64,000 nucleotides of DNA from an uncultured Elusimicrobia bacterium (GTDB lineage: Bacteria; Elusimicrobiota; Elusimicrobia; UBA1565; UBA9628): assembly GCA_903830945.1 (NCBI GenBank), contig CAIKVT010000072.1:1-64000 (forward strand), in the 5' to 3' direction. The notes beneath the pieces were generated by a model, which was not told the DNA's origin, searched no databases, and worked only from the letters and a program-made list of their open reading frames with translations. A program made the position numbers and the translations under genes. Positions 1 through 14,241 of this stretch are shown here, in pieces (position 1 is the first letter of the stretch; the number at the start of each line of letters is the position of its first letter).

Positions 1-114
1 CCAAAAACAAATCCGCTGGCCACGTTTCCACCGCGCCTTGAGTTCGGCCAACTCTTCACACAGACTCTGCAGCCGCGCCTCAAAACCCTTCTCCCCTATC
101 AGATTATCTTTCAT
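1..114 (-). CDS. Hypothetical protein, 3' part outside window
   Basis: Too short for the ORF track. An ATG at 112-114 (minus strand) opens a frame that stays open to the window edge, giving 38 visible residues beginning MKDNLIGEKGFEARL. A purine-rich GAGGTG lies six bases upstream, a good Shine-Dalgarno. The visible part is charged and could form a helix (LCEELAELKARWKR). It follows the AroQ-like gene by 10 nt, so it is probably the last or next gene of the same operon. No family is recognisable from this fragment. Confidence 0.5.
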   Translation of the reverse strand, partial: MKDNLIGEKGFEARLQSLCEELAELKARWKRGQRICFW

Positions 115-124
115 GACACGCACC

Positions 125-445
125 TCACACAATGAAATGACGCCGCCGCAAAAAGGAACGGGACGATCTTAGCAAAGCCCGATAGACTTCCCCGACAAAA
201 GTCCGGTCGAGGCCTTCGCGTCCCGCCTGCCGCACGACCGACCGCAGGATGATGGCCTCGCGCCGGGTGTCGCGCAGGCGCGTCTTAAACGGCTTTATGG
301 CCGCGACGAGCCGCTGGCGAGCCGCAAGCAGGCGGACGATGCGACGGTCGAGGGCATCGACGCGGCGGCGCAGGATGACGAGCTGTCCCCCTAACGCCAC
401 GGACGCCCCCCGCGGAAATCGACGACCCGCTCGGGGAAGATCCAT
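125..445 (-). CDS. AroQ-fold (chorismate mutase type II-like) protein
   Basis: A 106-residue protein with the AroQ helix pattern: a first helix LRRRVDALDRRIVRLLAARQRL (about residues 25-46), a Lys-containing turn (KPFK), then the DTRREAIILRSV block that matches the D-x-x-R-E signature of chorismate mutases, and a last helix near GEVYRALLRSSR. The family includes chorismate mutases and isochorismate-pyruvate lyases (PchB). The Gln expected near the end of the last helix appears to be Phe or Leu here, so activity on chorismate is not assured. The start at 445 lies 3 nt after the stop of the B12-radical SAM gene; a GTG at about 400 would give a more typical length. Its operon partners include an isochorismatase-type hydrolase domain, which makes a chorismate- or isochorismate-derived substrate attractive but unproven. 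Confidence 0.7.
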   Translation of the reverse strand: MDLPRAGRRFPRGASVALGGQLVILRRRVDALDRRIVRLLAARQRLVAAIKPFKTRLRDTRREAIILRSVVRQAGREGLDRTFVGEVYRALLRSSRSFLRRRHFIV

Positions 446-448
446 GCC

Positions 449-2410
449 TCAGAGCCCAAAACCGCCCTTATACTCGTGGAACATCTTGGCCAGGATGAGG
501 AGCTCCGGATGAGCGCGCTGAAGCCTGGGCAGGACGATGCGGACGCGGTCGCGATATCCGGCGAGCTTGGCCCGGAACTCGGGGGAAAGGGATGTCTCAT
601 CCCAGTGGAAGCGCTTGAGGTCCAGGATCACGCGGCTGCGGCAGCGCTCCAGCGACTGGCCCAGGTCTCGCCACATGCGTTCGGCCTCGCTGCCGCTGAG
701 CTTGCCCTCGAACTTGAGCCAAACCTCGCGGCGGGCGTGCAGGAACTCGACCTGCACCCGGAAGTTCTGCGCCTTGAGGCGCGCCGCCAGGGACTCCCAG
801 ACCTTGTGGTTGACCCAGAAAACCCCGGGCTGGCGGTAGGCCGTGCGCCGCAGCTTGGGGTGCTGAAAGAGATCTAACTTGAGCGCCAGCCCGGTCCAGG
901 CCGCCGCGCCGACCCCTGCCCATGACGTAAGCCGCTCGCTGCGCGTAGGCGCGCCAACGGCCGCGTGCACGCGTCGCTCCAGCTCCGAGATCCAGTGCCG
1001 GACGTTGCGGTTGGGCCCCAAGACCCGTCCGGCCTGGAAGATGGGATAGGCCTTGCGAATATCGCGGGCGAAGAGTCCGGCCTTCTTGACCAGCATCGGG
1101 TTAGCAGAGTCCTTGAGCTTGAGATAGCCGTTAAGCCAGACCTCCACCGCGCGATAGATGCTCGGCCCCAGGCGGCGGTAATCCTCCGCGAAACAACGCC
1201 GCTGGATCTTCTCGATCTGCGCGGCGGAAAGCTTGGGGTGCTTGACCATGGCTGTAAAGCCCGAGGCGTTGCGGCAATAAAGCTCCGGATCGGCCGCAAG
1301 ATCCTCGCGCAGCCGGCCTTCCGCGGTCACCCGTTCCCAATAAGGGGTCCCCGGGGTGGGGCCGTAGATGAGGAACTGCGTCAAGGCCGGCTTCATGGCG
1401 AGCAGTCCGTCGAGTTCGGCGGCCACCGTGCTCTCGTCCTGGTAGTCAAAACCCACAATCATGGAAGCCAAGATGGTGATGCCGTGCTCACGCAGCTCCC
1501 GGAAGATCTCCTCGGCCGACCGGCCCGCGCGCTTCTCGTAGCCGGAGCGCGTGCCTTCGTAGCCGATCCAGACCCCGTCGATCCCCATCTCAAGGAGCTC
1601 CTCGATCTTGTACTGGCTGAGAGCCTTAATGCTCGCGAAGGCGAAGATGGAGAGAGGCCGGCCGGACTTGACCACCAAGTCGTGGAATTCCATGGCCCGC
1701 TCTTTGTCGAGCAGGAAATCCTCGTCGATGACCGTGAATGACATATGCGGGTCCATGTCCAGGTAGCGCTCGACCACATTATAGATGTCGCGGCCCGTCG
1801 GCAGGAGCTTGACGTGCTGGCGCTTGAAGAAATGCGAGGTGCAGCAGAAGTCGCAACCGTTAGGACAACCCAGCCCGGCGAAGATCATGCCCGTGTTTCC
1901 CGCGCGCTGCCCAAAAACCTTAAGCTTGCTTACGATCAAGGGGTGCTGGTACGGCCCGGGCTGATGCCCCTCGCCCAGGAGTTTGCGCATGAACTCCACG
2001 CCCTCACCGCGACAGATGTGGTCAGCGTAAGGCTTGAGGAACTCCTCGCCCAACACCGTGCCATAGCCGCCTAGGATGATCTTGGCCTGAGGGGAGTGCT
2101 CGCGGATGAGGGCCACGATCTCCTTCGCGCGGTGGAAGGTGGAAAGGATGAAGGAGACGCCCACGTAGTCATACCCATTCTTGAGCTCACGAATAAGTTC
2201 GCTCTTGGAAGGATACTGCAGGACCACGGTCGGGACTTGGATGTTCGCGGCGATATATTCGAGAGAAAAGTGGTGATGGATGGCGCGCGGACTGAAGAGC
2301 CCTTGCGCCCGTGTGACCTGGCCGAAGAGCAGCTCATAACCCACGCTGGGCCCATCGCCGTGCTTGGGACCCAACGGCCGGCATATGCTGGTCAAAAGAA
2401 CTCTTTTCAT
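449..2410 (-). CDS. B12-binding domain radical SAM protein
   Basis: 653 residues. The N-terminal third has a cobalamin-binding-type Rossmann fold (VGVSFILSTFHRAKEI, then IILGGYGTV and ICRGEGVEFM at about residues 75-140). The radical SAM core follows, with the cluster motif CPNGCDFC (CxxxCxxC) at about residue 182 and a classical tail of the domain (GIDGVWIGYEGTRSGYEKR, then ILASMIVGFDYQ). The roughly 230-residue C-terminal region is not recognised. Relatives of this architecture catalyse radical methylations or rearrangements, often in natural-product or lipid pathways. The DxHxxG cobalamin motif is not evident, as in many class B enzymes. It sits 9 nt after the RlmN-like fusion gene and 3 nt before the AroQ-like gene. 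A TAAAAT motif 6 nt before the ATG could drive a leaderless transcript. Confidence 0.88.
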   Translation of the reverse strand: MKRVLLTSICRPLGPKHGDGPSVGYELLFGQVTRAQGLFSPRAIHHHFSLEYIAANIQVPTVVLQYPSKSELIRELKNGYDYVGVSFILSTFHRAKEIVALIREHSPQAKIILGGYGTVLGEEFLKPYADHICRGEGVEFMRKLLGEGHQPGPYQHPLIVSKLKVFGQRAGNTGMIFAGLGCPNGCDFCCTSHFFKRQHVKLLPTGRDIYNVVERYLDMDPHMSFTVIDEDFLLDKERAMEFHDLVVKSGRPLSIFAFASIKALSQYKIEELLEMGIDGVWIGYEGTRSGYEKRAGRSAEEIFRELREHGITILASMIVGFDYQDESTVAAELDGLLAMKPALTQFLIYGPTPGTPYWERVTAEGRLREDLAADPELYCRNASGFTAMVKHPKLSAAQIEKIQRRCFAEDYRRLGPSIYRAVEVWLNGYLKLKDSANPMLVKKAGLFARDIRKAYPIFQAGRVLGPNRNVRHWISELERRVHAAVGAPTRSERLTSWAGVGAAAWTGLALKLDLFQHPKLRRTAYRQPGVFWVNHKVWESLAARLKAQNFRVQVEFLHARREVWLKFEGKLSGSEAERMWRDLGQSLERCRSRVILDLKRFHWDETSLSPEFRAKLAGYRDRVRIVLPRLQRAHPELLILAKMFHEYKGGFGL

Positions 2411-2419
2411 ACCACTATT

Positions 2420-4027
2420 TTAACTTTTCCTCGTCTCCATAGAAAGCTTCGCGATCACATCCGCGGCCCGTGTCACCACCGAGAACCCTCGCGCCATGGC
2501 CCGCAAGGCTGCGACATGCTGCTCCTCGCTGCGGGCCGCAGTCGCGTCCGCCGAGACGAAGGTCAGACAGCCCAGGTCGAAAGCGGCCCGCGCCGTGGAT
2601 TCCACGCAGAGGTCGGTCTTGACCCCGGCCAGAACAAGCTGCGAGACCCCCTCGGCGCGCAGCCGCCCCTCCAGGGCGGGATTGGAGAAGGCGCTGTAGC
2701 CGGTCTTGAAGAACACGTCGGCCGCGCGGGGCTCGAGCACCGCGGCGACCCGAGCCCCAGGGGAGCCCGCCAGGCAGACCTCGTCCCACCAATCTCGCAT
2801 CAGCGACCCGTCCAGCGTTGAGCCTTCGTGCGCGTGGACCGTGAACAAGACCGGCCGGCCGGCCCGACGGAAGGCCTCAATAAGGCTCCGGATATTGAAC
2901 AGCGCGGCCCGCCCGGGCGGCAGATAGGCCGGGGAGTGCCGGTCGAGGAAGAACTCCTGCATATCCACGACCAGGAGGGCCGCATGTTCCGGCTCGAAAG
3001 CCCGGTCGCGTGAGGACTCCTGATCCAACGCCTGCATCCAGGCCTCAGCTCTCTGCGCCATGGAGTCGGCCGTCACGTAGCCGCGCCGCTCGCGACGCTC
3101 GGCGCGCAGTCCGGCGGACGCCGCGCCCTTGAGGCTCTGGCTCCAGAGCTGGCCGCACGAGGTCTCGGACTCGATCTCCTCGGGGAAGCTGGGCGAGAGG
3201 ATGACCTCGAAACCCCGGCGCTCCAGCTCCGCCGCCGCGGCGCGGATCGGCTCCGGCGCCTGCGTCCAGACGAAGGTCGTCTGGCTGCGACGCGCCGAGA
3301 GGGTGGGATTGATGGGAGTAACCTTGACCAGAAAATGCTCCGGGTCGAAGACCCGGGCGATGGCGGCCGCATCCAGGGCCTCGCCCGGACCCGGGGCGAA
3401 ATTAAGGGTCACTTTACGGTCGCCCGGCCGCACGAAGCGACGGCCGTAGTCCGCCACTTCCTCCAGGGTCCACTTCTTGATGGGAACTATCTTGTGGCGG
3501 ATCTCCTCATCCGTCGCGTGCAATGAGAACTGGAGCTGGAAGCGGCCGCCCGGGAAGCACTCATCCTTGACGCGGCGCAGCTCCTCGAACCAAGGCGCGA
3601 TGGCCGGGCTCTTGGGAGCCACTGTGGACACGCTGGCGATGAGGCCCGGCCGGACCGACTCGCGCGCCAGGTCGCGCAGGGCCTGCGGGACCGCGGGGTT
3701 AAGGGAGGGTTCGCCCATGCGCGCGAAATGGATCTTGACCTTGGGGTGGCGCGCGAGGTCCAGGCCGGGGTTCTGCGCGGCGATGAAGCGGATCTGTTCG
3801 AGCATCTCCGGCGCGGAGAGGTTGCCATGATAGCCGGTCGCCCCCGCGTCGCACATGCGGCAGCCGACCGCGCAGCCGGCCTGGGTCGAGATCATCATGA
3901 CCCACTTCTCGGCCTTGGGCACCCCCGGCTCCATGGTATCCACGAACTCGATGCGGCGTGCCGCATCGAGTTCGGCCAGATAAAGCGTCGCCAATCCCGG
4001 CACGTCGCGCCTTTCTACGATTTTCAA
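2420..4027 (-). CDS. RlmN-like radical SAM domain fused to isochorismatase-type cysteine hydrolase
   Basis: 535 residues with two domains. Residues 1-310 resemble RlmN/Cfr: the 4Fe-4S motif CAVGCRMC, a GEPSLNP segment like the GEPLxN of RlmN, and ETSCGQLWSQ, which matches the methyl-carrying cysteine region (Cys355 in E. coli RlmN). The second essential RlmN cysteine (Cys118, in LCxSSQ) is absent; the equivalent here reads WVMMISTQ. Residues 345-530 are an isochorismatase/nicotinamidase-fold hydrolase with its triad: Asp in LLVVDMQEFF, Lys in VFFKTGYSAF and Cys in KTDLCVES. Start is TTG: its TTGA overlaps the stop of the upstream flavoprotein gene. The fusion implies that a radical SAM step and a hydrolase or amidase step act on one pathway. 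A role as a 23S rRNA methylase is unlikely given the missing cysteine and the operon. Confidence 0.85.
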   Translation of the reverse strand: MKIVERRDVPGLATLYLAELDAARRIEFVDTMEPGVPKAEKWVMMISTQAGCAVGCRMCDAGATGYHGNLSAPEMLEQIRFIAAQNPGLDLARHPKVKIHFARMGEPSLNPAVPQALRDLARESVRPGLIASVSTVAPKSPAIAPWFEELRRVKDECFPGGRFQLQFSLHATDEEIRHKIVPIKKWTLEEVADYGRRFVRPGDRKVTLNFAPGPGEALDAAAIARVFDPEHFLVKVTPINPTLSARRSQTTFVWTQAPEPIRAAAAELERRGFEVILSPSFPEEIESETSCGQLWSQSLKGAASAGLRAERRERRGYVTADSMAQRAEAWMQALDQESSRDRAFEPEHAALLVVDMQEFFLDRHSPAYLPPGRAALFNIRSLIEAFRRAGRPVLFTVHAHEGSTLDGSLMRDWWDEVCLAGSPGARVAAVLEPRAADVFFKTGYSAFSNPALEGRLRAEGVSQLVLAGVKTDLCVESTARAAFDLGCLTFVSADATAARSEEQHVAALRAMARGFSVVTRAADVIAKLSMETRKS

Positions 4028-4908
4028 ATCCAGTCCTCCAGGAAGTCGATGCAGCGCATGGCCGCTTTGATGCCGGACCCCGCGGCGACAGCCACCTGCC
4101 GATCAGCATCCCCCGACGCGTCTCCAGCCACGAAGAAGCCCGGCGGCAGGCGCCCGGCAGAGAAGGGCAGCGCCGCCGGAACCTTTCCTACGAGAACGAA
4201 CAGCGCGTCCGCCGCAAGCCGCAAGCTGCCGTCACGGCCCGCGATTTCCAGGGCCTCCAGACGCCGCCGGCCCTGCAGACGGCATATGGTGGCCCCAAGG
4301 ATCAGGACGATGCGGGCGGTTTCTCCCAGGCGACGGCACAAAAGACGATGCGCTTTGATGGACCCGGCGCGGCAGACCAGATAGACCCGGCGGGCTTGGC
4401 GCGCCAGCGCCAGGGCCTGGTGGACGGCGGCTTCCCCGCCCCCGGCCACGACCACGGTCCTACCGCGCCAACGCGAAGGGCGGTCGAACGCCGCATGGAA
4501 CAGCCCCCGGCCTCGGAGCCGCCCTTCCCCGGAGATGCCCAGTCCCTTGAACTCCGCGCCCGGACAATAGACCACGGTCCGGGACCTCAAAAGCCTCCCC
4601 CCCTGCAGACGCAGGACGAACCCGCGCCCATGGCGGCCGACTCCGCGCACCTGAGCGCGTCGGGTCCGCAGACCCCAGCGCCGCGCCTGCCTGACCCAGC
4701 GGTCCATCAGCCGGCGGCCGTCTATCCCAGACGGGAAGCCGGGATAGTTCTCGATGCGTCCCAAAAGCCGCGCCTGCCCTCCCAAACGGTCCTGCTCCAC
4801 CAAAAGGGCGCGGTAGCCCGCGCGGGCCAGATGCAGGCCCGCCGCCAAGCCGGCCGGCCCCCCGCCTACGATCACGGACTCCCAGACGATGTCGTTGGGC
4901 ACAGGCAT
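4024..4908 (-). CDS. Thioredoxin-reductase-like NAD(P)H flavoprotein without CxxC
   Basis: 294 residues from the ATG at 4908; the ORF track start at 5019 adds an unconserved leader. There are two dinucleotide folds: the FAD site VIVGGGPAGLAAGLHLARAG near the start and the NAD(P)H site VVVAGGGEAAVHQALAL in the middle. The C-terminal FAD motif is FFVAGDASGDADRQVAVAAG. In thioredoxin reductases the redox CxxC precedes the second fold; here the same place reads LFHAAFDR, so both cysteines are gone. It may pass electrons from NAD(P)H to a ferredoxin, flavodoxin or directly to the radical SAM partners. It is first in the minus-strand operon and overlaps the next gene by TTGA. Confidence 0.85.
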   Translation of the reverse strand: MPVPNDIVWESVIVGGGPAGLAAGLHLARAGYRALLVEQDRLGGQARLLGRIENYPGFPSGIDGRRLMDRWVRQARRWGLRTRRAQVRGVGRHGRGFVLRLQGGRLLRSRTVVYCPGAEFKGLGISGEGRLRGRGLFHAAFDRPSRWRGRTVVVAGGGEAAVHQALALARQARRVYLVCRAGSIKAHRLLCRRLGETARIVLILGATICRLQGRRRLEALEIAGRDGSLRLAADALFVLVGKVPAALPFSAGRLPPGFFVAGDASGDADRQVAVAAGSGIKAAMRCIDFLEDWI

Positions 4909-5048
4909 AAAGTCTATCAGTGTCCGAGGCCCCGCAACAAGCCGAACCCCATCGCTCGGCGGTCCCGCGGCGGAAGCTTCTAATGAATATCCGGAATTGC
5001 TACCATAAGCGCCTTCCACATCCCCCAGTCCATGGAGGCATGACCCCG

Positions 5049-5498
5049 ATGATACACGGCGTAACCATACACCCCTTGCGCCAGATCCTCGACGAGCGCG
5101 GCCAGGTGATGCACATGCTGCGCCGCGACGACCTCTGGTTCGAAAAGTTCGGGGAAATCTATTTCTCAGTGGTCAATCCGGGCGCCATCAAGGCTTGGCA
5201 CCTCCACAAGAAGATGACCCTCAACTATGCGGTGATCAGCGGAAATATAAAACTGGTTCTCTACGACGACCGCGCCGGCTCTCCCAGCCGCGGTCGGCTG
5301 CAGGAGATATTCACAGGGGAAGGCCATTATGCCCTGATCACGGTCCCGCCCAGGATATGGAACGGCTTCAAGGGCATATCCGCCGCTCCGGCTATCGTGG
5401 CCAACTGCGCCACCGTGCCGCACGACCCAAAAGAGATCGTGCGGGCGGACCCCTTCACCAAGGACATCCCCTATGACTGGACGCTCAAACACGGCTGA
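5049..5498 (+). CDS. RmlC-like dTDP-sugar epimerase family cupin
   Basis: 149 residues in a single cupin barrel. Visible family features are KAWHLHKKMT (metal or active-site histidines), YAVISGNIKLVLYDDR, VPPRIWNGFKG and the closing PHDPKEI with IPYDW. These match the group of short dTDP-4-dehydrorhamnose 3,5-epimerase relatives that act on nucleotide-activated 4-keto sugars. The ORF track starts at 4920, but GGAGG at 5034-5038 points to the ATG at 5049 (10 nt spacing) rather than 5040 (1 nt). It is followed 8 nt later by an RmlD-like reductase, so the pair probably completes a deoxysugar for the neighbouring glycosyltransferases. No RmlA or RmlB is in the window. Confidence 0.85.
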   Translation: MIHGVTIHPLRQILDERGQVMHMLRRDDLWFEKFGEIYFSVVNPGAIKAWHLHKKMTLNYAVISGNIKLVLYDDRAGSPSRGRLQEIFTGEGHYALITVPPRIWNGFKGISAAPAIVANCATVPHDPKEIVRADPFTKDIPYDWTLKHG

Positions 5499-5506
5499 CC
5501 CCCGCA

Positions 5507-6439
5507 ATGGATGAGGCAAGTTCCGAAATAAAGGCCTTGGTGGTCGGCGCTTCGGGACAGCTAGGAGCCGCTCTCGTCTCCTTGCTCGACTCGCGCGGCA
5601 TCCCGGCCGCGGGAACGCACTGCTCACGACTCAAGCCCGGATCCGTACACCTTGACGTTCGCGACCGCGACGAAGTCCACCGGCGCATCTTGGCCCTCGC
5701 GCCCGACCTCGTCTTCCTGATGCAGAACACGCCCGGAGGGGTGGACTTCTGCGAGGATCATCCGGATGAGGCGGCCGCCGTCATCGTCGGCGGCACCCGC
5801 CACGTCCTGGAGGCCGCGGCGCGACACAGCGCCAAGGTCGTGTTCTTCTCCAGCGATTACATCTTCAACGGGAAGTCCGGCCCCTATGACGAAGAGGCGG
5901 CTCCCTGCCCTATCAGCGTCTATGGACGGGCGAAGCTCGATGCCGAAATCCTGATCCAGTCCTATCCTCACGCCTCCCTCATCGTGCGGACCACGGCCGT
6001 GTTCAGCTGGGCCCCCGGGACCAAGAACTTCGCCATGCAGGTCCACCAGCGCCTACGAGCCGGCCAACCCTTCCCGGTCCCGAACGACCAATGGTGCAAT
6101 CCGACCTTGGCTGAGTATCTGGCCGAGACCTGCCTGAAGTTAGCCCGGTCGGACGAGAGCGGCACGTTCAACATCGTCGGCCGGGACTGGATGCCCCGCT
6201 CCGATATGGCCGTCGCCCTGGCCCGAGCCATGTCTTTGGACCCCGCCCTCATCCAAGCCGTGCCGACCTCGGAACTGCGCCAACGCGCCCGGCGGCCGCT
6301 CAAAGGCGGCCTCAAAACGGACAAGCTGTGCCGGATCCTGGACAGAGCGCCTTGGGACCTGGAACGCTCGCTTGAACTCTTCACCAGAAAATTCCGCCAG
6401 AACGCGCCCATAGCCGCCCCGGACCACGATCATGCCTAA
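5507..6439 (+). CDS. RmlD-like dTDP-4-dehydrorhamnose reductase family protein
   Basis: 310-residue short-chain dehydrogenase of the extended RmlD type. The NAD(P) loop is VVGASGQLGAAL at residues 12-23, the catalytic block is FFSSDYIFNG followed by SVYGRAKLDAE (YxxxK), and FNIVGRDW is typical of the C-terminal part. It should reduce the 4-keto group of the sugar made by the upstream RmlC-like enzyme. The exact sugar cannot be read from sequence; QNTPGGVDFCEDHP replaces the usual TAVDKAE segment of true RmlD, so a relative with another substrate is possible. The ATG at 5507 is 8 nt after the previous stop and the 3' end overlaps the GT2 gene by 8 nt. Confidence 0.85.
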   Translation: MDEASSEIKALVVGASGQLGAALVSLLDSRGIPAAGTHCSRLKPGSVHLDVRDRDEVHRRILALAPDLVFLMQNTPGGVDFCEDHPDEAAAVIVGGTRHVLEAAARHSAKVVFFSSDYIFNGKSGPYDEEAAPCPISVYGRAKLDAEILIQSYPHASLIVRTTAVFSWAPGTKNFAMQVHQRLRAGQPFPVPNDQWCNPTLAEYLAETCLKLARSDESGTFNIVGRDWMPRSDMAVALARAMSLDPALIQAVPTSELRQRARRPLKGGLKTDKLCRILDRAPWDLERSLELFTRKFRQNAPIAAPDHDHA

Positions 6440-7211
6440 GGCACCCGCGCTCAAGATCGCCATATTCATCCCCGCTTACAACGCCGCATACACCCTCCCG
6501 GTGGTACTGGACCGCATCCCTCCGGAGATCAAGGAGAAGGTTCAAAAAATATTCGTCGTCGACAACGCAAGCCCCGACAACACCTACCTCATCGGGATCG
6601 GCTACCGCGAGGCCAAGGGCCTCGACAAGCTGGAAGTCTTCCGCAACGACCACAACCGTGGCTACGGCGGCAGCCAGAAGCTCGCCTACCGCTACGCCAT
6701 CGACAACGGCTTCGACATCGTGGTCATGCTGCACGGCGATGCCCAATACGCCCCCGAGAAGATCCCCTACCTCCTGGAGCCCCTGGAACGCGGCCAGGCG
6801 GATATGGTCTTCGGCTCGCGCATCGCGGGGTTGCCCCTAAAAGGCGGCATGCCTCTCTACAAGTTCCTGGGCAACAAGCTCCTCACGGCCATCCAGAACC
6901 GCATCCTGGGCCTGAATCTGACCGAGTTTCACTCCGGGTTCCGGGTGTTCCGCTGTGCCGCTCTGGCCCAGGTGCCTTTCGAGCTCTGCTCCAACGACTA
7001 CCACTTCGACACGGACATCATCATCCAATTCAAGATCAAGGGCCTGCGCATCGTGGAGATGCCCATCCCGACCTACTACGGCAAGGAAAAATGCGGCGTC
7101 AACGTCGTCAGCTATGGCCTCAACGTCCTAAAGTCCATGGCCACCTACTGGCTATGGTCGAAGGGGCTGCTGAAGATCCCCATGTTCGACGACTGCCGGA
7201 CCCGCGCTTAA
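6432..7211 (+). CDS. Family 2 glycosyltransferase (DPM1/ArnC-like)
   Basis: 259 residues. The GT-A fold is clear: IAIFIPAYNAAYTLPVVLDR at the start, FVVDNASPDNT, the RNDHNRGYGGSQKLAYR turn and the metal-binding MLHGDAQY in place of DxD. EFHSGFRVFRCAAL is the conserved mid region of polyprenyl-phosphate glycosyltransferase relatives. No C-terminal membrane pair is present, so it is the soluble type. It likely moves a sugar from a nucleotide donor to a lipid or glycan acceptor at the inner membrane, using the deoxysugar built by the two genes before it. Its stop shares the TTAA of the converging minus-strand gene. Confidence 0.87.
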   Translation: MPKAPALKIAIFIPAYNAAYTLPVVLDRIPPEIKEKVQKIFVVDNASPDNTYLIGIGYREAKGLDKLEVFRNDHNRGYGGSQKLAYRYAIDNGFDIVVMLHGDAQYAPEKIPYLLEPLERGQADMVFGSRIAGLPLKGGMPLYKFLGNKLLTAIQNRILGLNLTEFHSGFRVFRCAALAQVPFELCSNDYHFDTDIIIQFKIKGLRIVEMPIPTYYGKEKCGVNVVSYGLNVLKSMATYWLWSKGLLKIPMFDDCRTRA

Positions 7212-8458
7212 CGACGGCCGGCCGGAGACACCCATCGTGCGCCAGGAGACCGACTCCATGGCAGGAAGTCATCCAGTGCCGCTGCGGCGAAAAGGATCAT
7301 GACCGGCATCACGGGCATGCGGTAGCGCATGACGGCATAGATCAAGGCGTAGGCCAAGGTCCAAAGCACGACGGCGCTATACAGGGGGAAAAGTTCCCGC
7401 CAGCGCCGACGCGCGCCCCACAAGCCCAGGAGCGCCAAGGGGATGATCCAGCCGTCCGACAGCAAGCTGATCCAAAATATTATCCGATAGTGGTAGGGAT
7501 AAGCGCGCTGGTAGGGATAAAGCCTCCAGAGTTTTACGACTCGATAAGCGCAGGACGAAAGGTAGGCAAAAGGGCGCGCCTTGATGCGCGCCAAGCTGCC
7601 GCGCAGAAGCATCTCGTTAGCCTCGATATAACGGCGCTGCTGCATGACCAGCATGATTTGCTGGTAATAGGAATCCGCGTCGAAATCCCGAGTCTGTTGC
7701 GGGGTCCCGAGATCATCAGGAGATACGATCAACGCTTGATAAAGATTAAGCCCACCGTGGATGTTGGTGAGCACGGGCTTGCCGAAAGCGATCTGATTGC
7801 GGATGGGCCAGGGCGCGTAGACCGCTACGCCCAACAATGAGTAGAGCCAGAATGCGCGCCAAGCACGAGAACGCTCTTCGCGGATGAAAAACCACAACGG
7901 GATGACGCCGATCCAGGGCAGAGCGGCCGGGTTGACGAGCCCCGCCAATGCCGCCAAGATGCCGCAGCCCCCCGCCCAGAGGCAGTTGCGGCTTTCGCGC
8001 CACTTATAAATGGCCGCGAGCAGAGCGGTGAAAAGAAAAAGAAGGAAGGTTTCCAGATAATTCCAGCCGCCATAGTAAACAGCGAAGGGATAGACGCTCC
8101 AGACGGCGAGAACGATCAGGGCGCAGCGCCTGGTGAAAAGCCGCAGGGCCAGCCACGCCAACAGAAGGCCGGTGACGACGTTCAAGACGGCGTTGCCAAG
8201 CAGAACAACCAAGGGATTCCCGCCGAAAACCAGGAACAGGAATGCGATCCAAAGTGGGAAACCTGGGCTGCGCTCCAGCGTCAGCACGCCGGGCTCCAGT
8301 GCGTAGCCCTGCCCGCTCAAGAGAGAGCGCGCGATCCCGACATAGCCATCGACATCCAGGATATTAGCCGGATTATGAGAGAAATGCGCGATGAAAACCA
8401 AGCGTGTGAGCAGGGTCAGCGCGGAGAAGAAAAAAACGGCCCTCTTAAATCCGCTCAC
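7208..8458 (-). CDS. ArnT/PMT-type (GT39-like) membrane glycosyltransferase
   Basis: About 416 residues, almost entirely hydrophobic helices with short polar loops. Near the N-terminus the periplasmic loop holds ILDVDGYVGIARSLLSGQGY and LERSPGFPLWIAFL, the usual D-x-Y and sugar-binding pattern of dolichyl-/undecaprenyl-phosphate sugar transferases. The ORF track start at 8572 overlaps the upstream methyltransferase gene; the GTG at 8458, preceded by GGGGAG, removes the overlap and fits the first membrane helix (FKRAVFFFSALTLL). It would transfer a sugar from a polyprenyl-phosphate donor to an acceptor on the outer face of the inner membrane. It is the last gene of the minus-strand polysaccharide block. 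Confidence 0.8.
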   Translation of the reverse strand: MSGFKRAVFFFSALTLLTRLVFIAHFSHNPANILDVDGYVGIARSLLSGQGYALEPGVLTLERSPGFPLWIAFLFLVFGGNPLVVLLGNAVLNVVTGLLLAWLALRLFTRRCALIVLAVWSVYPFAVYYGGWNYLETFLLFLFTALLAAIYKWRESRNCLWAGGCGILAALAGLVNPAALPWIGVIPLWFFIREERSRAWRAFWLYSLLGVAVYAPWPIRNQIAFGKPVLTNIHGGLNLYQALIVSPDDLGTPQQTRDFDADSYYQQIMLVMQQRRYIEANEMLLRGSLARIKARPFAYLSSCAYRVVKLWRLYPYQRAYPYHYRIIFWISLLSDGWIIPLALLGLWGARRRWRELFPLYSAVVLWTLAYALIYAVMRYRMPVMPVMILFAAAALDDFLPWSRSPGARWVSPAGRR

Positions 8459-8501
8459 AAGACGTGCGTCTCCCCGATCCAAAGCCAGCAGCGCCCGACC
8501 C

Positions 8502-9443
8502 TCATGATCCTCCGCGCTTGCGCGCGCATATCTCGACAGAATCCCGCGTGTCCAGATACAGAAGTTTATCACCGATGTCCAACCAACGGATCATCCAGCG
8601 CAAGGAACCGCAGATCCATGGCGGATAGTGTTTCAAGCGGCTCACCCAATAACCGTATGAGAAGATCCGGCCGAACGACTTGATCAGGACCATCTCCAGG
8701 CCCGCCGAATCGAGCATTTTCCCGATGGTGCTCTGGTCTAAATAATAAAGATGTGCGGGACGTAGGCCCCACCAATAACCGCCCAGCATACGCGCCGAAA
8801 GACTGCCGATGTCCGGGGTGACAAAATAAAGCAATCCCCCCGGCCGCAGCAACTCCGCGGCCCGGCACACCGCGGCCCGAGGGTCTGGCAAGTGCTCGAT
8901 CACGTCAATCATCGCGACCACGTCGAAACTTCCGGGGACAAAGCGCCGGGAGGACTCCAGCGTCTCCGGATGCACCTCAAGTCCGAATCGTTCACGCGCG
9001 ATGCGGCAGGCCCACTCAGACGGCTCTAGACCTGCCACTTCATAGTCGACACGAGCCGCGTTGAGAAAATACCCGGTCGAGGCGCCGACCTCTAAAAGCC
9101 TGCCGGAGCGCACAAAGCGCTTGACTGTGTTCAGGCTGAAATGGGAATTGATCGAGCGGCTCGTGCTTTCGGAAAGGTACGTTTCATCGACACAAGCAGC
9201 GTAGCCGGCGGCAATATCCGCGATCTTGGGCCGCGGGTTGGTGTAGGCGAGCCCGCAATCCAGGCAGCGCACGATACGTCCATAATTTTGGAACTCATCA
9301 GTAGTGGCGGTGAAGGCTCCCTCTTCCTGGGCCAAATACGGCTGGTAAGGCCGTTCGTGTAAAAGGCGCGCGCGACGGCCTCCGCAAAGGTTGCAGGGGA
9401 TCTCCTCCAGAGGCTCGGTGGCTGCTGGCCGATCAGACGCCAT
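8502..9443 (-). CDS. Class I SAM methyltransferase with N-terminal zinc ribbon
   Basis: 313 residues. A treble-clef-like zinc site comes first: PCNLCGG near residue 17 and VRCLDCGLAYTNPRP near residue 60. The SAM domain follows with motif I LLEVGASTGYFL, the acidic residue in VAGLEPS, and motif IV AMIDVIEHLPDP, then LRPGGLLYFVTPD. This architecture is common in O-antigen clusters, where it methylates sugar hydroxyls or C-methylates keto sugars. A TATAAT box 11 nt before the ATG and the absence of a clear Shine-Dalgarno suggest that it can also be transcribed on its own. It lies between the E3 reductase and the GT39-like gene. Confidence 0.87.
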   Translation of the reverse strand: MASDRPAATEPLEEIPCNLCGGRRARLLHERPYQPYLAQEEGAFTATTDEFQNYGRIVRCLDCGLAYTNPRPKIADIAAGYAACVDETYLSESTSRSINSHFSLNTVKRFVRSGRLLEVGASTGYFLNAARVDYEVAGLEPSEWACRIARERFGLEVHPETLESSRRFVPGSFDVVAMIDVIEHLPDPRAAVCRAAELLRPGGLLYFVTPDIGSLSARMLGGYWWGLRPAHLYYLDQSTIGKMLDSAGLEMVLIKSFGRIFSYGYWVSRLKHYPPWICGSLRWMIRWLDIGDKLLYLDTRDSVEICARKRGGS

Positions 9444-9454
9444 ATTCTGCCCGA

Positions 9455-9460
9455 ATTATA
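9455..9460 (-). promoter_or_regulatory. Candidate -10 box (TATAAT) for methyltransferase gene
   Basis: A perfect TATAAT on the minus strand, 11 nt before the ATG at 9443, in the 66-nt gap after the E3 reductase gene. No good -35 is visible at 16-18 nt. The predicted 5' leader would be about five bases. Confidence 0.4.
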
Positions 9461-9509
9461 CCAATTCCAGGATATTCCCCCTTCTGCCGTCAGAGAATAA
9501 CCAGGCGCG

Positions 9510-10241
9510 TCATTCCCAAGCATCGCTACGGACCCGTTCGCGGGGGATTCCGCGTGCGGACAACTCCTCGGCGAACGCCCGAATCATGGCCGGCGGGCCG
9601 GACAGGTAGTAGGTAGCGGCGGCGGCATCACTCAAAGCGGACCAGACGGCCGCCACGGAAAGGCGCCCCGGTTCCACCCCCTGACCAGGCGCGCCCCCGG
9701 ATTCAGCGAAAAACGCCGCTTGAAGGGTCGGCCGCGCCAACGAAAACTGCTGAAAGAGCCCCCGAAAGAGCAGCAGCCCGGGATGGCGGGCGCCGTAGAA
9801 AAGGCGGACGCGCGAGCCATCGTCGCCTCCGCCAGAAGCATATCCCCGCAAAAAAGCCATGAAAGCGCTCACCCCGGTCCCGCCCGCGATCAGCGCCGCC
9901 TCGGTCCCCGGACCGGCCGTGACCACGAACTCTCCATAGGGCAGCTTAACCCAGACCTCGCTGCCGGCGCGCAGCTCCCTTTCCATGCGCGAAGTAAAGC
10001 GCCCCACAACGGCGTAGAGGATCTCGAGGGCGTCCGTCTCGGCCGAAGGACTCAGGATGGAGAACGCACGAGAGTCCGGCCAGAAGGCGGAGGGCTCGTA
10101 AGGGTCGATGGCGAGGTGCAGGAACTGCCCGGCGGAGAACCGCGGCACGGGGCGCTCGGGCTTGAGCCGGAGCGTGTAGACATGCCCCCCATGGTCGCGG
10201 ACCTCGGACACCGTACAGTTCAGTTTGCGAGGCATGGCCAT
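9510..10241 (-). CDS. Ferredoxin-NADP reductase-type FAD/NAD(P)H reductase (E3-like)
   Basis: 243 residues: a flavin-binding barrel with RAFSILSPS (FAD phosphate and isoalloxazine contacts) and a C-terminal NAD(P)H domain with AALIAGGTGVSAFMAFLRG and YYLSGPPAMIRAF. It resembles the reductase half of CDP-6-deoxy-delta-3,4-glucoseen reductase (AscD/DdhD, E3), which feeds electrons to the E1 dehydratase. True E3 also has an N-terminal plant-type 2Fe-2S domain; it is missing here, so an external ferredoxin may be needed. It lies 14 nt after the E1 gene on the same strand, which strongly supports that partnership. Confidence 0.82.
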   Translation of the reverse strand: MAMPRKLNCTVSEVRDHGGHVYTLRLKPERPVPRFSAGQFLHLAIDPYEPSAFWPDSRAFSILSPSAETDALEILYAVVGRFTSRMERELRAGSEVWVKLPYGEFVVTAGPGTEAALIAGGTGVSAFMAFLRGYASGGGDDGSRVRLFYGARHPGLLLFRGLFQQFSLARPTLQAAFFAESGGAPGQGVEPGRLSVAAVWSALSDAAAATYYLSGPPAMIRAFAEELSARGIPRERVRSDAWE

Positions 10242-10255
10242 GGCGGCGCGCGGCC

Positions 10256-11578
10256 TCAGCGCTTCTTCATGAAGCCCCGGAAGGCCTCGACCATGTGCTC
10301 GAGCCTCGATGCGTCGAGCCCCGGGTAGACTCCGATGAAGAAGGTTGACTCGGTGATACGGTCGGTATTAACCAGACCGCCGCAGACGCGGTGAGGGATG
10401 TTCAGAAAGGCGGGGTGGCGCAATAGGTTGCCGGCGAAAAGCGCCCGCGTCTCGATCTTGCGTTCCTCGAGATGGCACTGCAATTCGGTCCGCGTGAATC
10501 CAGCGCCCTCACGGACGGTAATGACGAAGCCGAACCAAGCGGGGTCCGCGCCGGGTGTCGGAACAGGCAGCACCAAACGGTCCTCGTAGGGAGCTAGGGC
10601 TTTTCTCAAATACTCGAAGTTCGCCTTGCGCCGGGAGATGAATCCAGGGAGCTTTTGCCATTGTGCGCAACCGATTGCCGCCTGAAGGTCCGTCAGCTTG
10701 AGGTTGTAGCCGATATGCGAATAGACGTATTTGTGGTCAAAGCCCAAGGGAAGCGTCCCGAACTTCTGGGAAAAGCGCTTGCCGCAGGTATTGTTCTCCC
10801 CTCCCGCACAGTAACAATCACGGCCCCAGTCGCGCAGGGAGCGCACGATACGGCCCAACTCATCAGCCTGCTCCCCGGCGGCGATGACACAACCTCCCTC
10901 CCCCATGGTGATGTGATGCGCCGGATAGAAGGAGAAGGTCGCCAGATGGCCGAAGGTGCCAGTCAACCGGCCATGATACGTGGAGCCCAAGGCGTCGCAA
11001 TTATCCTCGACGAGCCACAACCGATGCCGCCGGGCGACCTCCTGCACGACATCGAGGGCGAAAGGATTGCCCATGGTATGAGCCATCATGATGGCCCGGG
11101 TCTTGGGACCCACGGCCTGGGCGATGCGCTCCGGAATGGCCGTGTAATCGCCGATGCCCACGTCCACGAAGACCGGGATAAGCTGGTTCTGCAGGATCGG
11201 CGCGAGCGTAGTGGGGAAGCCCGCGGCCACGGTGATGACCTCGTCGCCGGGCTGGAGCCGTCGCTCGCCCAACTTGGAAGAGGTCAAGGCGGTGAGGGCC
11301 ACGAGGTTGGCGGAAGATCCAGAGTTGACTAGATAAGCCCCGGGCGCGCCGAAGTAGTCGGCGAAGTCCGCCTCGAATCGTTCGGCGAAGCGGTTGGCGG
11401 TCAGGAAAAAATCAAGGACCGCCTCGGTCGCGTAACGCAGCTCCTGACCGTCGAACACCCGGCCCGCGTAATGGACCAAGTCCCGGTCAGCCACGAACGG
11501 CCGCGCATCGAGCTTATCCTGGGCATACTTCTCAACCAGGTCCAGGATCTGCCGTCTGAGGGTCTCCGACTTATCCAT
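10256..11578 (-). CDS. rfbH: CDP-4-keto-6-deoxyglucose-3-dehydratase (E1, RfbH/DdhC family)
   Basis: 440 residues, collinear with RfbH/AscC. The PLP-fold block SFYPAHHITMGEGG has His where DegT aminotransferases have the Schiff-base Lys, the hallmark of E1, which uses PMP and a one-electron step. Cysteines that fit the 2Fe-2S site are in VEDNCDALG and RDCYCAGGENNTC (C-x-C-x7-C). It removes the 3-hydroxyl of a CDP-4-keto-6-deoxyhexose to make 3,6-dideoxyhexoses for O-antigen. The usual preceding enzymes (glucose-1-phosphate cytidylyltransferase and CDP-glucose 4,6-dehydratase) are not in this window. A TATCAT motif lies exactly 8 nt before the ATG. Confidence 0.92.
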   Translation of the reverse strand: MDKSETLRRQILDLVEKYAQDKLDARPFVADRDLVHYAGRVFDGQELRYATEAVLDFFLTANRFAERFEADFADYFGAPGAYLVNSGSSANLVALTALTSSKLGERRLQPGDEVITVAAGFPTTLAPILQNQLIPVFVDVGIGDYTAIPERIAQAVGPKTRAIMMAHTMGNPFALDVVQEVARRHRLWLVEDNCDALGSTYHGRLTGTFGHLATFSFYPAHHITMGEGGCVIAAGEQADELGRIVRSLRDWGRDCYCAGGENNTCGKRFSQKFGTLPLGFDHKYVYSHIGYNLKLTDLQAAIGCAQWQKLPGFISRRKANFEYLRKALAPYEDRLVLPVPTPGADPAWFGFVITVREGAGFTRTELQCHLEERKIETRALFAGNLLRHPAFLNIPHRVCGGLVNTDRITESTFFIGVYPGLDASRLEHMVEAFRGFMKKR

Positions 11579-11586
11579 ACAGACCT

Positions 11587-11592
11587 ATGATA
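11587..11592 (-). promoter_or_regulatory. Candidate leaderless -10 box (TATCAT) for rfbH
   Basis: TATCAT on the minus strand with 8 nt to the ATG at 11578, so transcription would begin at or beside the start codon. No -35 is evident. The short AGG next to it is a weak alternative ribosome site. The same spacing occurs before the polymerase gene at 14213, bamA and the gene at 39330. Confidence 0.38.
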
Positions 11593-11618
11593 ACATAAGG
11601 CCGATGCGCGCGCTCCGT

Positions 11619-14213
11619 CTACTTCTTCGAGTGGATGATCTCGAAACGCGGCGACCCGTTCTCGGGCTGGTAGCCGGGCAGGGGCGGCGGAACGGCTTTA
11701 AGCCGACCCTCGGACCGTATCTTCTGATCTAAAACGGCCAAGTTGGTCTTGGCTTGCGCGAAACCCGGGTTGAGCGCCAGGGCGCGCTGGTAGGCCTTCT
11801 CGGCGTCCCGCCAGCGCTCCATCATGAAATAGGCATTAGCCAAGTTCGTATAAGCCTCGGCGGATTCGTGCTTGTGCATAGGCGCCTCGCCCGGGAGCGC
11901 CACATAGGGCTGGTAGGAGAGGATGCTTTTGCGAAGATAGCCTAGAGCCAGCAGGGCGGGATCCACCGTGCATTTGGGCGCGTTGATCAGCATCTCGTAA
12001 GTCTCAGCGGCTTTCATGAAGTTGGCCCTGGCCTCGTCCTTGCGGCCCTGCTGCTGGGCCCGCTGGGCCCAGATCATATAGACCTGCCCGATGCGGAAAT
12101 AATTCGGCTCGAAGACCGGGTCGACGGCCTGATACATGTAAAAACGCGTAAGCGCCTTCCTGAGGTAAAGGTCGCCCTCCTCGACCCGGCCCTGGTTCAT
12201 AGCCCACTCCGCCCGGCGCATATGCAGGTTTCCGACCTGATGATGCATCTGGACGTAGTTGGGGGCCAACCGACGCACGTACTCGTAGGAATCCAGCGCG
12301 CGCTCATAATCGTCACGAGACACGTTGTTGGTATCACCCCAGCCCGGGTTGTAGACCTTGCGCATGTCAAACCGATCGTTGTAAACGTTGCCCATGAAAT
12401 ACATGGACATGACGAAGTTGGGATTCAGCTTCCTGACCTTGAGGTAGTTGGCCAGGGCGTCGTCCCAACGCCGCTCCTTGGAGAAGTAGATGGCGATGTT
12501 ATGGTCCACATCGGCCTTAAAGTAGCCCCAGAATTGATACAGAGGCAAGAGCATGCACGCGATCATGAGGGGCACGGCTGGGTTCTCGGAGAGATAGCTC
12601 AGGTAGACAAAAACGCCGCCCAAGGACAGGAGACATCCGGCGAATATCCCCCACGCCAACCACCACTGCAGGAGTTCTCCTCCCATGGGCAGACGCCCCA
12701 GCGGCCCTTGCACGCCGGAGAAATCGGAGAGCAGCAAAAACCCCACGTAGAACAGGCCTCCCCACGCCGCGAGGCGCGCGGGCCAGATCAGGAACTCACC
12801 GATCAGTTTCCAAACGGAAGAGGTGCTGGCCGGATCGGATGCCGCGGCGCCCCGCAAATCATGGAGCTCATAGAGAGCCTTGCCGCGGGCAAGATTGACG
12901 ATCGTGCCCGACAGAAGCCCCAGGTAGACCCCGCTGGAGACGAAACGCAGGCTCACGTCGAAGCAGTTATGGCCGAGCATGCCCATGAAGGCGATCATAT
13001 AACCGACCAAGTCGTAAGCGCGCGGTGGAGCTCGACCGTCCTTGGTGGAGAAAAGCGTGGAGAGCTGTCCTAATGAACGGAAGCCCACGACCAGCGTGCT
13101 CAAGGCCAACCAGATGAAGACACCGAAGCCCAGGATGCCGTTGTCGAAGAACTCCTCGAGGTACTCGTCCTCGGAATGGTCGGTCTCCGTATTGTGTTTG
13201 CCTTCGATGTGGAAGATGGGCGGCCGCCGGAAAGCGGGATAGATGGGAGGGAAGCTCCCCAGGCCCGTGCCGATCCAGGGGTGGGTCATGATCATCTCCC
13301 AGGTCGCCTCCCAGGTGAAGAGCCGGAAGTTGACGGAAACGACGCGCGCCTGCAAGTCCTTGGCCACATAGCCAAGGAACCCCAGGACCCCGATCGCCAC
13401 GACGGAGAGGACAACCTTACGAAAGGGCGCCACGACCACGGAAAAATAGATGAAGGCAACGGCGCCGAAGAGGAAGATGACCAGGGCGAATCCCAACCAC
13501 GCGCCCTTGGTCCCGGTCATGAGCAGATCCACCACCAGCATGGCCATCAGAGGGATGAGGCTGAAGCGGCGGGTCTTGAGGTACTGGGTCAACAGGATGG
13601 GGAAGATGATGACCAGGAAGTCCCCGAAGAAATTCGGGTTGCCGTAGGTGGAGAAGACGCGCGAACCGAATGCCCCGCGCCAGATGAAAGGGTCGATGCC
13701 GTTTCCCACCCCGGAAGGGAACCAGGTGATGTCGACCCATTGCAGAAAACCGTAGCCCACCGCGATCCAAGCGGTGAGAATGAGGATGTCGGTCAGCCGC
13801 TCCATCGCCCGGGCGTCGAACTCGTAAATGACGATGAGCGCCGCAGTCATGAAGAAGCAATGCCGCAGGAAGAAGTCCACGCTGGCCATGTGGTAGGGCG
13901 CGTGGGCAAAAGAGAGGATGCCCACCAGCAAATAGGCCAAGAACGGCGAAAGGCAGACCAAGTCGTCCTTGTTGAAGACCCCCCAGCCCGCCTCCAACAG
14001 ACGCGCGGCCCACAGGGCCAACAGCGCCGCCCCGCCCATCTGCATGACCGTGATCTTGACCTGGGCCGAATCGTAGGTGCGCAGGTAGAACAAAGACGAG
14101 ATGAGGCAATAGAGGATGGGCAGCCACCAGACGATCGCCTTATGGGAGAAGGCCTCCGCCGTCACCGAGGCGGACGCCCTACGCTGGTCCTTGGCGGCCT
14201 TACGATCAGCCAT
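11619..14213 (-). CDS. Wzy/WaaL-type O-antigen polymerase or ligase with C-terminal TPRs
   Basis: 864 residues. About ten membrane helices fill residues 28-500. The Wzy_C signature is present: FSTYGNPNFFGDFLVI and TGTKGAWLGF in the first half, then the large periplasmic loop starting MTHPWIGTGLGSFPP with HNTETDHSEDEYLE. After the last helices come several TPR-like repeats (NPNFVMSMYFMGNVYND, PNYVQMHHQVGNLHMRR, EAYTNLANAYFMMERWRDAEKAYQRALALNP). The membrane part would polymerise repeat units or transfer glycan from undecaprenyl pyrophosphate to lipid A-core or to protein, and the TPRs probably bind partners. Ligase and polymerase cannot be told apart by sequence. A TAGAAT motif lies 8 nt before the ATG. 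Confidence 0.87.
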   Translation of the reverse strand: MADRKAAKDQRRASASVTAEAFSHKAIVWWLPILYCLISSLFYLRTYDSAQVKITVMQMGGAALLALWAARLLEAGWGVFNKDDLVCLSPFLAYLLVGILSFAHAPYHMASVDFFLRHCFFMTAALIVIYEFDARAMERLTDILILTAWIAVGYGFLQWVDITWFPSGVGNGIDPFIWRGAFGSRVFSTYGNPNFFGDFLVIIFPILLTQYLKTRRFSLIPLMAMLVVDLLMTGTKGAWLGFALVIFLFGAVAFIYFSVVVAPFRKVVLSVVAIGVLGFLGYVAKDLQARVVSVNFRLFTWEATWEMIMTHPWIGTGLGSFPPIYPAFRRPPIFHIEGKHNTETDHSEDEYLEEFFDNGILGFGVFIWLALSTLVVGFRSLGQLSTLFSTKDGRAPPRAYDLVGYMIAFMGMLGHNCFDVSLRFVSSGVYLGLLSGTIVNLARGKALYELHDLRGAAASDPASTSSVWKLIGEFLIWPARLAAWGGLFYVGFLLLSDFSGVQGPLGRLPMGGELLQWWLAWGIFAGCLLSLGGVFVYLSYLSENPAVPLMIACMLLPLYQFWGYFKADVDHNIAIYFSKERRWDDALANYLKVRKLNPNFVMSMYFMGNVYNDRFDMRKVYNPGWGDTNNVSRDDYERALDSYEYVRRLAPNYVQMHHQVGNLHMRRAEWAMNQGRVEEGDLYLRKALTRFYMYQAVDPVFEPNYFRIGQVYMIWAQRAQQQGRKDEARANFMKAAETYEMLINAPKCTVDPALLALGYLRKSILSYQPYVALPGEAPMHKHESAEAYTNLANAYFMMERWRDAEKAYQRALALNPGFAQAKTNLAVLDQKIRSEGRLKAVPPPLPGYQPENGSPRFEIIHSKK

Positions 14214-14221
14214 GCGCGGTC

Positions 14222-14227
14222 ATTCTA
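14222..14227 (-). promoter_or_regulatory. Candidate leaderless -10 box (TAGAAT) for Wzy-type gene
   Basis: TAGAAT on the minus strand followed by 8 nt and the ATG at 14213. There is no Shine-Dalgarno in the spacer (GACCGCGC) and no clear -35. It agrees with the spacing at rfbH, bamA and 39330. Confidence 0.35.
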
Positions 14228-14241
14228 GCAATTTCCCATCG

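Follow-up and report, generated by a model that had tools for sequence, protein, structure and literature searches.

The DNA that we analyzed, hereafter the window, is a 64,000-nucleotide stretch from an uncultured Elusimicrobia bacterium that runs from base 1 of contig CAIKVT010000072.1 (C72); the source genome is 3.24 Mb in size and 99% complete. Open reading frame (ORF) listing and translation identified four complete, tightly packed genes on the minus strand, reading from 4908 to 125 (Table 1). These encode a flavoprotein (FLAV), a protein in which an RlmN-like radical S-adenosylmethionine (SAM) domain is fused to an isochorismatase-fold cysteine hydrolase (FUS), a B12-binding radical SAM protein and an AroQ-like protein. 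The core of this operon is a trio: FLAV, the RlmN-like radical SAM enzyme and the isochorismatase-fold hydrolase.

Table 1. Coordinates of the operon and its features in the window; in the last row, positions follow the name of the locus in another genome.
Feature	Position	Strand	Basis
FLAV, thioredoxin-reductase-fold flavoprotein, 294 aa	4024..4908	-	ORF, Pfam
FUS, single 535-aa protein: RlmN-like radical SAM domain + isochorismatase-fold cysteine hydrolase	2420..4027	-	ORF, Pfam, AlphaFold model
RlmN-like radical SAM domain of FUS, residues 1-310	3098..4027	-	alignment + model
CxxxCxxC [4Fe-4S] motif of FUS: C52, C56, C59	3851..3874	-	invariant 81/81
Met45 of FUS, at the position of the resolving Cys118 of RlmN	3893..3895	-	alignment
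Cys291 of FUS, equivalent of the methyl-carrying Cys355 of RlmN (SCGQLW)	3155..3157	-	alignment
Isochorismatase-fold hydrolase domain of FUS, Asp355-Lys441-Cys474	2453..2995	-	Pfam, alignment, fold match
B12-binding radical SAM protein, 653 aa	449..2410	-	ORF, Pfam
AroQ-like (chorismate mutase type II) protein, 106 aa	125..445	-	ORF, Pfam
38-codon ORF fragment at contig edge, ATG at 114	1..114	-	ORF listing
Tryptophanase/tyrosine phenol-lyase-type genes	L030:6295-7701, L031:13365-14747, L032:7643-9040, L043:5810-7228, L044:7403-8806, L089:12378-13760		

A preliminary description of this DNA had reported a compact operon of five genes with a TTGA overlap and gaps of 9, 3 and 10 nt. The ORF listing and translation bore out this spacing: the TTG start of FUS overlaps the TGA stop of FLAV, FUS is followed after 9 nt by the B12-radical SAM gene, this after 3 nt by AroQ, and AroQ after 10 nt by an ATG at position 114. 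The TTG start is supported by the relatives of FUS, which begin with ATG, GTG or TTG at the same place. The gene count, on the other hand, had to be lowered. The RlmN-like and isochorismatase-type parts, which had been listed as separate genes, are both present and form a single ORF, so the complete genes number four. The fifth member is a mere 38-codon fragment because the window starts at base 1 of the contig. It has no counterpart in the neighborhoods of the same-genus relatives L023 and L025, where the operon stops after AroQ and an opposite-strand transporter gene comes next; we therefore rejected it as a member, and it is probably not part of the operon.

Pfam matches agreed with these assignments: Pyr_redox_2 in FLAV (5e-16), Isochorismatase in FUS (1e-43), B12-binding (4e-9) and Radical_SAM (1e-7) in the B12-radical SAM protein, and CM_2 in AroQ (2e-12; 47.6 bits against a cut-off of 27). 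The Radical_SAM match in FUS was slightly below the cut-off (2e-6, 28.3 bits). The two radical SAM enzymes predicted earlier are both supported.

We searched 57 related genomes with the fused protein and located its neighbors by tblastn. About two dozen of these genomes possess a full-length relative of FUS, most often with FLAV directly upstream. The RlmN-like enzyme and the hydrolase are fused in most Elusimicrobiota, which implies that they carry out consecutive steps; in one Elusimicrobiota family they are encoded by separate genes that are adjacent in most cases (L048-L050, L052). The RlmN-like protein has a patchy distribution in the phylum, occurring in 29 of 248 sampled genomes, and the named relatives are Elusimicrobia metagenome-assembled genomes, mostly from groundwater.

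A second scan covered one genome per species and recovered 225 relatives, of which 80 were kept. Its patterns lay within the RlmN-like part only and FLAV was outside the query; because relatives were confirmed and ranked with the entire fused protein, loci that carry the hydrolase may be mildly favored. The trio was present in both bacteria and archaea, in at least 13 phylum-level groups. Beyond Elusimicrobiota these include, among archaea, Thermoplasmatota, other Euryarchaeota and Heimdallarchaeota and, among bacteria, Eisenbacteria, Aminicenantes, Krumholzibacteriota, Bipolaricaulota, Chloroflexota, Coatesbacteria, Stahlbacteria, Planctomycetota and Acidobacteriota. The usual order outside Elusimicrobiota is hydrolase-FLAV-RlmN-like, most often with gene overlaps of 4 to 20 bases. 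Among the 29 non-Elusimicrobiota loci with at least 2.5 kb of upstream sequence, FLAV was found in 27 and the hydrolase also in 27. An ATP-binding cassette (ABC) ATPase lies near the trio in 7 of 40 non-Elusimicrobiota loci, and no other neighbor family recurs widely there; the trio should therefore be functionally complete.

The three proteins also diverge in step. Their distance matrices were correlated across 29 non-Elusimicrobiota loci with a Mantel r of 0.82-0.87, a value that none of 2000 permutations reached. Conserved co-occurrence had been suggested as a check on the operon, with scattering in relatives as the contrary outcome. The trio is not scattered: because FLAV, the RlmN-like enzyme and the hydrolase are linked in dozens of genomes across phyla, the arrangement goes far beyond what chance would give. 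Gene order, conservation, domain make-up, the loss and gain of motifs described below, and co-divergence were all directly observed. In a single case (L131:8330-11826), FLAV and RlmN-like genes without a nearby hydrolase were situated between the genes for a dihydroorotate dehydrogenase Fe-S subunit and dihydroorotate dehydrogenase.

The AlphaFold2 model of FUS is confident (pLDDT 92.4) and matches the RlmN and isochorismatase folds. In the model, the RlmN-like domain begins with the beta-extension, and the helix-hairpin-helix (HhH) RNA-binding domain is missing. Only 50-60 residues (82 in one relative) precede the CxxxCxxC motif, as compared to 105 in the canonical RlmN that the same genome encodes, which indicates that the RNA-binding N-terminal domain is gone. 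The presence of that separate canonical copy also led us to reject a housekeeping RlmN identity for FUS. The scores against curated models were far below the cut-offs (66 bits against 290 for TIGR00048; 64.5 against 530 for CfrAB), and the radical SAM part of FUS falls under no curated NCBIfam model.

Class A methylases need two conserved cysteines, and an enzyme that lacks the second one, which is C118 in RlmN and C105 in Cfr, fails to resolve its crosslink with RNA (PMC9692996, PMC13001441); in Cfr the N-terminal domain binds rRNA (PMC13001441). Across 81 relatives of the RlmN-like domain, the position of Cys118 was occupied by Met, Ile, Leu, Thr, Val, Arg, Asn or His and in no case by Cys. 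The equivalent of Cys291 was kept in 78 of 81 (78 of the 79 readable), the remainder being two gaps and one Phe, and the RMGEP/QFS active-site motifs and the CGQ motif were retained. The domain has only four conserved cysteines, the three cluster ligands and Cys291, so we rejected the possibility that another of its conserved cysteines acts as the resolver. The catalytic cysteine of the hydrolase was likewise rejected as a replacement for Cys118, as the hydrolase is a separate protein in many lineages. Since Cys118 and the RNA-binding domain are gone and the curated models score far below their cut-offs, the RlmN-like enzyme is by definition not a class A methylase and can perform at most the first half of the RlmN reaction. 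A second RlmN-like paralogue, adjoining a B12-radical SAM gene (L041:4711-5949), also lacks the Cys118 equivalent and has CGQL.

The hydrolase domain has a complete Asp355-Lys441-Cys474 triad, conserved across relatives (D 65/66, K 65/66, C 64/66), and reached no equivalog cut-off. In true isochorismatases such as EntB and PhzD, Gly takes the place of the nucleophilic Cys. Judged by these residues, the domain belongs to the amidohydrolase branch, and we rejected a true isochorismatase identity: the fold of the isochorismatase-type domain noted earlier was confirmed (PF00857), the activity that its name implies was not.

FLAV possesses the FAD and NAD(P) motifs. Its redox CxxC is replaced by LFHAAFDR (residues 136-143, at 4480-4503), CxxC is absent in 61 of 63 relatives and occurs anywhere in the protein in only two of the 63, and the score against TIGR01292 (182.4 bits) fell short of the cut-off of 343.45. 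With CxxC lacking so widely, an electron-transfer role like that of ferredoxin-NADP reductases of the thioredoxin reductase (TrxR) fold is more likely by analogy than disulfide reduction. The earlier suggestion that the flavoprotein is an electron source is thus plausible.

The two downstream genes, encoding the B12-radical SAM and AroQ proteins, are local additions and not part of the core. In several families of Elusimicrobiota the trio has a B12-radical SAM gene next to it, and orthologues also occur in genomes that have no trio (for example G013, G016 and G050). The best fold matches of the protein, from a moderate model, were AprD4 and CysS; all curated families scored below cut-off, the best being BchE (49 against 481 bits). 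The C-terminal region (residues 430-653) has no Pfam match. The C-terminus (window 449-904) was modeled with a beta-beta-alpha-beta-alpha-beta pattern that resembles a STAS domain, a resemblance that the fold search did not confirm.

AroQ is operon-linked in the source genus only, for which reason we rejected it as a core component. It adjoins the B12-radical SAM gene in six of the seven genus members; in one member without the B12 gene the CM_2 domain sits elsewhere, inside a longer ORF. At the active-site positions of E. coli chorismate mutase, which include the catalytic Gln88, R26, R43, K54, D59, R62, E63 and S95 are kept and the Gln88 position is Leu in four of five copies; all NCBIfam equivalog cut-offs were unmet. 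The preliminary description had raised the possibility of a lone chorismate mutase of aromatic amino acid synthesis. AroQ is indeed the sole CM_2 protein of the source genome, where chorismate synthase is present and chorismate apparently produced. As no prephenate dehydratase was found in this genome and prephenate dehydrogenase gave only a sub-cut-off match, a housekeeping role in Phe/Tyr synthesis is not evident from gene content.

Other genes accompany the trio elsewhere in Elusimicrobiota. In nine loci (L043-L045, L047-L052), the gene immediately upstream of the FLAV or RlmN-like gene encodes a MoaA-like radical SAM protein (about 313 aa). Downstream of the trio, six loci encode a tryptophanase/tyrosine phenol-lyase-type pyridoxal phosphate (PLP) enzyme (Table 1). 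The L030 copy of the latter scored 706 bits, below the 720.7 required for tyrosine phenol-lyase. It belongs to a long operon of overlapping genes (L030:4735-15396) encoding a SPASM radical SAM protein, FLAV, a radical SAM protein, a 282-aa protein with no Pfam match, the fused protein, a B12-radical SAM protein, the PLP lyase and an ACT-malic enzyme. An HxsC4-like radical SAM gene product (~328 aa) is encoded a few kb from the trio in L023, L025, L026 and L034 (three genus members and one other genus); none was seen in the window. The differing additions of MoaA-like and PLP enzymes suggest that the product of the trio is elaborated in lineage-specific ways, perhaps involving aromatic amino acids.

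Rfam gave no matches on eight trio loci and hence no riboswitch clue, PADLOC found no defense-system match in the core, and a scan for promoters and terminators returned nothing exceeding chance. Divergent to the operon (window 5040-15909) is a surface polysaccharide region encoding an RmlD-like reductase, a glycosyltransferase, a DegT aminotransferase, an O-antigen ligase and PMT-type transferases. This neighborhood is not shared, as relatives of the operon adjoin other genes.

The reading that we favor, with more doubt than confidence, is a one-carbon transfer via Cys291 to a small molecule, powered by FLAV and coupled to amide hydrolysis. The RlmN-like enzyme would be related to the class A radical SAM methylases but repurposed and RNA-free. 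One molecule of SAM would methylate Cys291, and a second would yield the 5'-deoxyadenosyl radical that turns the S-methyl group into a methylene radical. The acceptor of this radical may be an sp2 carbon in a small metabolite that is aromatic or heteroaromatic or bears an amide, and the adduct would have to be released without a Cys118-type base. An adenine-derived 2-methylpyrimidine is one conceivable substrate. The cluster of the radical SAM enzyme would be reduced by FLAV at the expense of NAD(P)H, either directly or via a carrier. Before or after carbon transfer, the hydrolase, fused or adjacent, would cut the same metabolite at an amide or ureido bond. In the source genus, the B12-radical SAM enzyme and AroQ-like protein may elaborate the product. 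The chemistry, the order of the steps and the substrate class are those that we infer. The wider proposition, possible but the more doubtful of the two, is that the module is a cross-domain pathway that stands alone and rests on a single-cysteine variant of the RlmN/Cfr mechanism. Cys291 would deliver the one-carbon unit to a small molecule, release would proceed without a resolving cysteine, FLAV would supply dedicated electrons and an amidohydrolase would be coupled.

Several points weigh against this proposal, and release of the adduct without Cys118 is its main difficulty. RlmN and Cfr that lack Cys118/Cys105 lose turnover and remain crosslinked to RNA (PMC9692996, PMC13001441). Because these enzymes need that residue, no turnover is expected if methylation follows the known route, and the reaction may not be methylation at all. 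The pairing of FLAV with the RlmN-like enzyme as its reductase is only what we infer. Furthermore, FLAV was not detectable in L078, L082 and L083, and both partners were missing in L121 and L091.

The difficulty of release raises another possibility, namely that Cys291 takes part in a different radical reaction in which no carbon passes to a released product, such as thioether or S-C bond formation, a radical relay or sulfur donation. A changed outcome would be expected to leave a trace of just this kind, in which the fold is otherwise intact and the methyl-carrying Cys still there but the resolving Cys gone; however, the preserved CGQ and RMGEP/QFS motifs suggest that the first half-reaction was kept, and we consider this alternative rather unlikely. 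A divergent tRNA or rRNA C-methylation system, with the flavoprotein and hydrolase serving the modified base, would suit the nearest characterized relatives, RlmN and Cfr, which act on adenine in RNA, and the occurrence of the trio alone outside Elusimicrobiota, as expected of a housekeeping modification. It is nevertheless improbable, given the absence of the HhH domain in all relatives and of Cys118 in 81 of 81, the presence of the protein in just 29 of 248 sampled Elusimicrobiota genomes, and the fusion to a small-molecule hydrolase.

Chorismate-derived chemistry had been proposed as the common theme of the operon. On this view of a secondary pathway, AroQ and the isochorismatase-type domain would provide an aromatic precursor for decoration by the radical enzymes. 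The adjacency of AroQ and the B12-radical SAM gene in six of seven genus members, the chorismate synthase in the genome and the tryptophanase/tyrosine phenol-lyase-type genes adjoining the trio in six other Elusimicrobiota are consistent with this idea. It was not supported as a common theme, however, since the hydrolase carries the amidohydrolase Cys (64/66) in its Asp-Lys-Cys triad and AroQ is operon-linked in one genus, while the trio occurs in archaea and bacteria without AroQ or the B12-radical SAM protein; moreover, the position of the catalytic Gln88 is Leu in four of five AroQ copies. We therefore see little likelihood in it. That the four genes are ordinary neighbors without a shared function is very improbable: B12-radical SAM orthologues in trio-free genomes and the genus-limited linkage of AroQ would fit, but for the trio it is refuted by cross-phylum linkage, translational coupling, fusion and co-divergence.

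The preliminary description knew of no pathway that combines these parts, and our search of the open-access literature, with subscription journals mostly outside it, found no description of the trio module or of the single-cysteine RlmN-like family. The individual parts are variants of known enzymes, and the module and the family appear undescribed in the open literature. The class A mechanism, as defined by RlmN and Cfr, needs two cysteines; here a whole family has lost the second, along with the RNA-binding domain, alike in both domains of life, and with it the purpose of the resolving cysteine can be tested directly. The trio points to an undescribed small-molecule pathway common to many uncultured anaerobes, and its three tightly coupled genes are a compact, expressible unit for product discovery. 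If the wider proposition is true, the RlmN-like enzyme would represent a new mechanistic class among radical SAM enzymes that transfer carbon, and the pathway would involve an unrecognized metabolite or cofactor of anaerobes.

Each component can be set beside known systems. Like the class B enzymes BchE, HpnJ, AprD4 and CysS, the B12-radical SAM protein combines B12-binding and radical SAM domains, but it has an extra C-terminal region and scores below every curated cut-off. AroQ resembles AroQ chorismate mutases and PchB in its above-cut-off CM_2 match and most active-site positions, and differs from them in the Leu at the Gln88 position and in the unmet equivalog cut-offs. FLAV has the FAD and NAD(P) motifs and the ENYPGFP motif of thioredoxin reductase and TrxR-fold ferredoxin-NADP reductase; unlike thioredoxin reductase, it is nearly always without CxxC and falls below the TIGR01292 cut-off. 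The hydrolase shares the PF00857 fold with EntB and PhzD (best PDB sequence match 2fq1, 1e-18), in contrast to which it has Cys for Gly, no carrier domain and no isochorismate context outside the genus. With nicotinamidase, RutB and biuret hydrolase it shares both fold and Asp-Lys-Cys triad, yet in most Elusimicrobiota it is joined to a radical SAM enzyme. Finally, FUS is like RlmN and Cfr in its fold (Foldseek E 1e-12 to 1e-16), its CxxxCxxC motif, its methyl-carrying Cys (C355 in RlmN, C338 in Cfr) in a CGQL context and the beta-extension before the barrel. Unlike RlmN and Cfr, it has neither the HhH RNA-binding domain nor the resolving Cys118/Cys105, and its family is fused or adjacent to a hydrolase and a flavoprotein.

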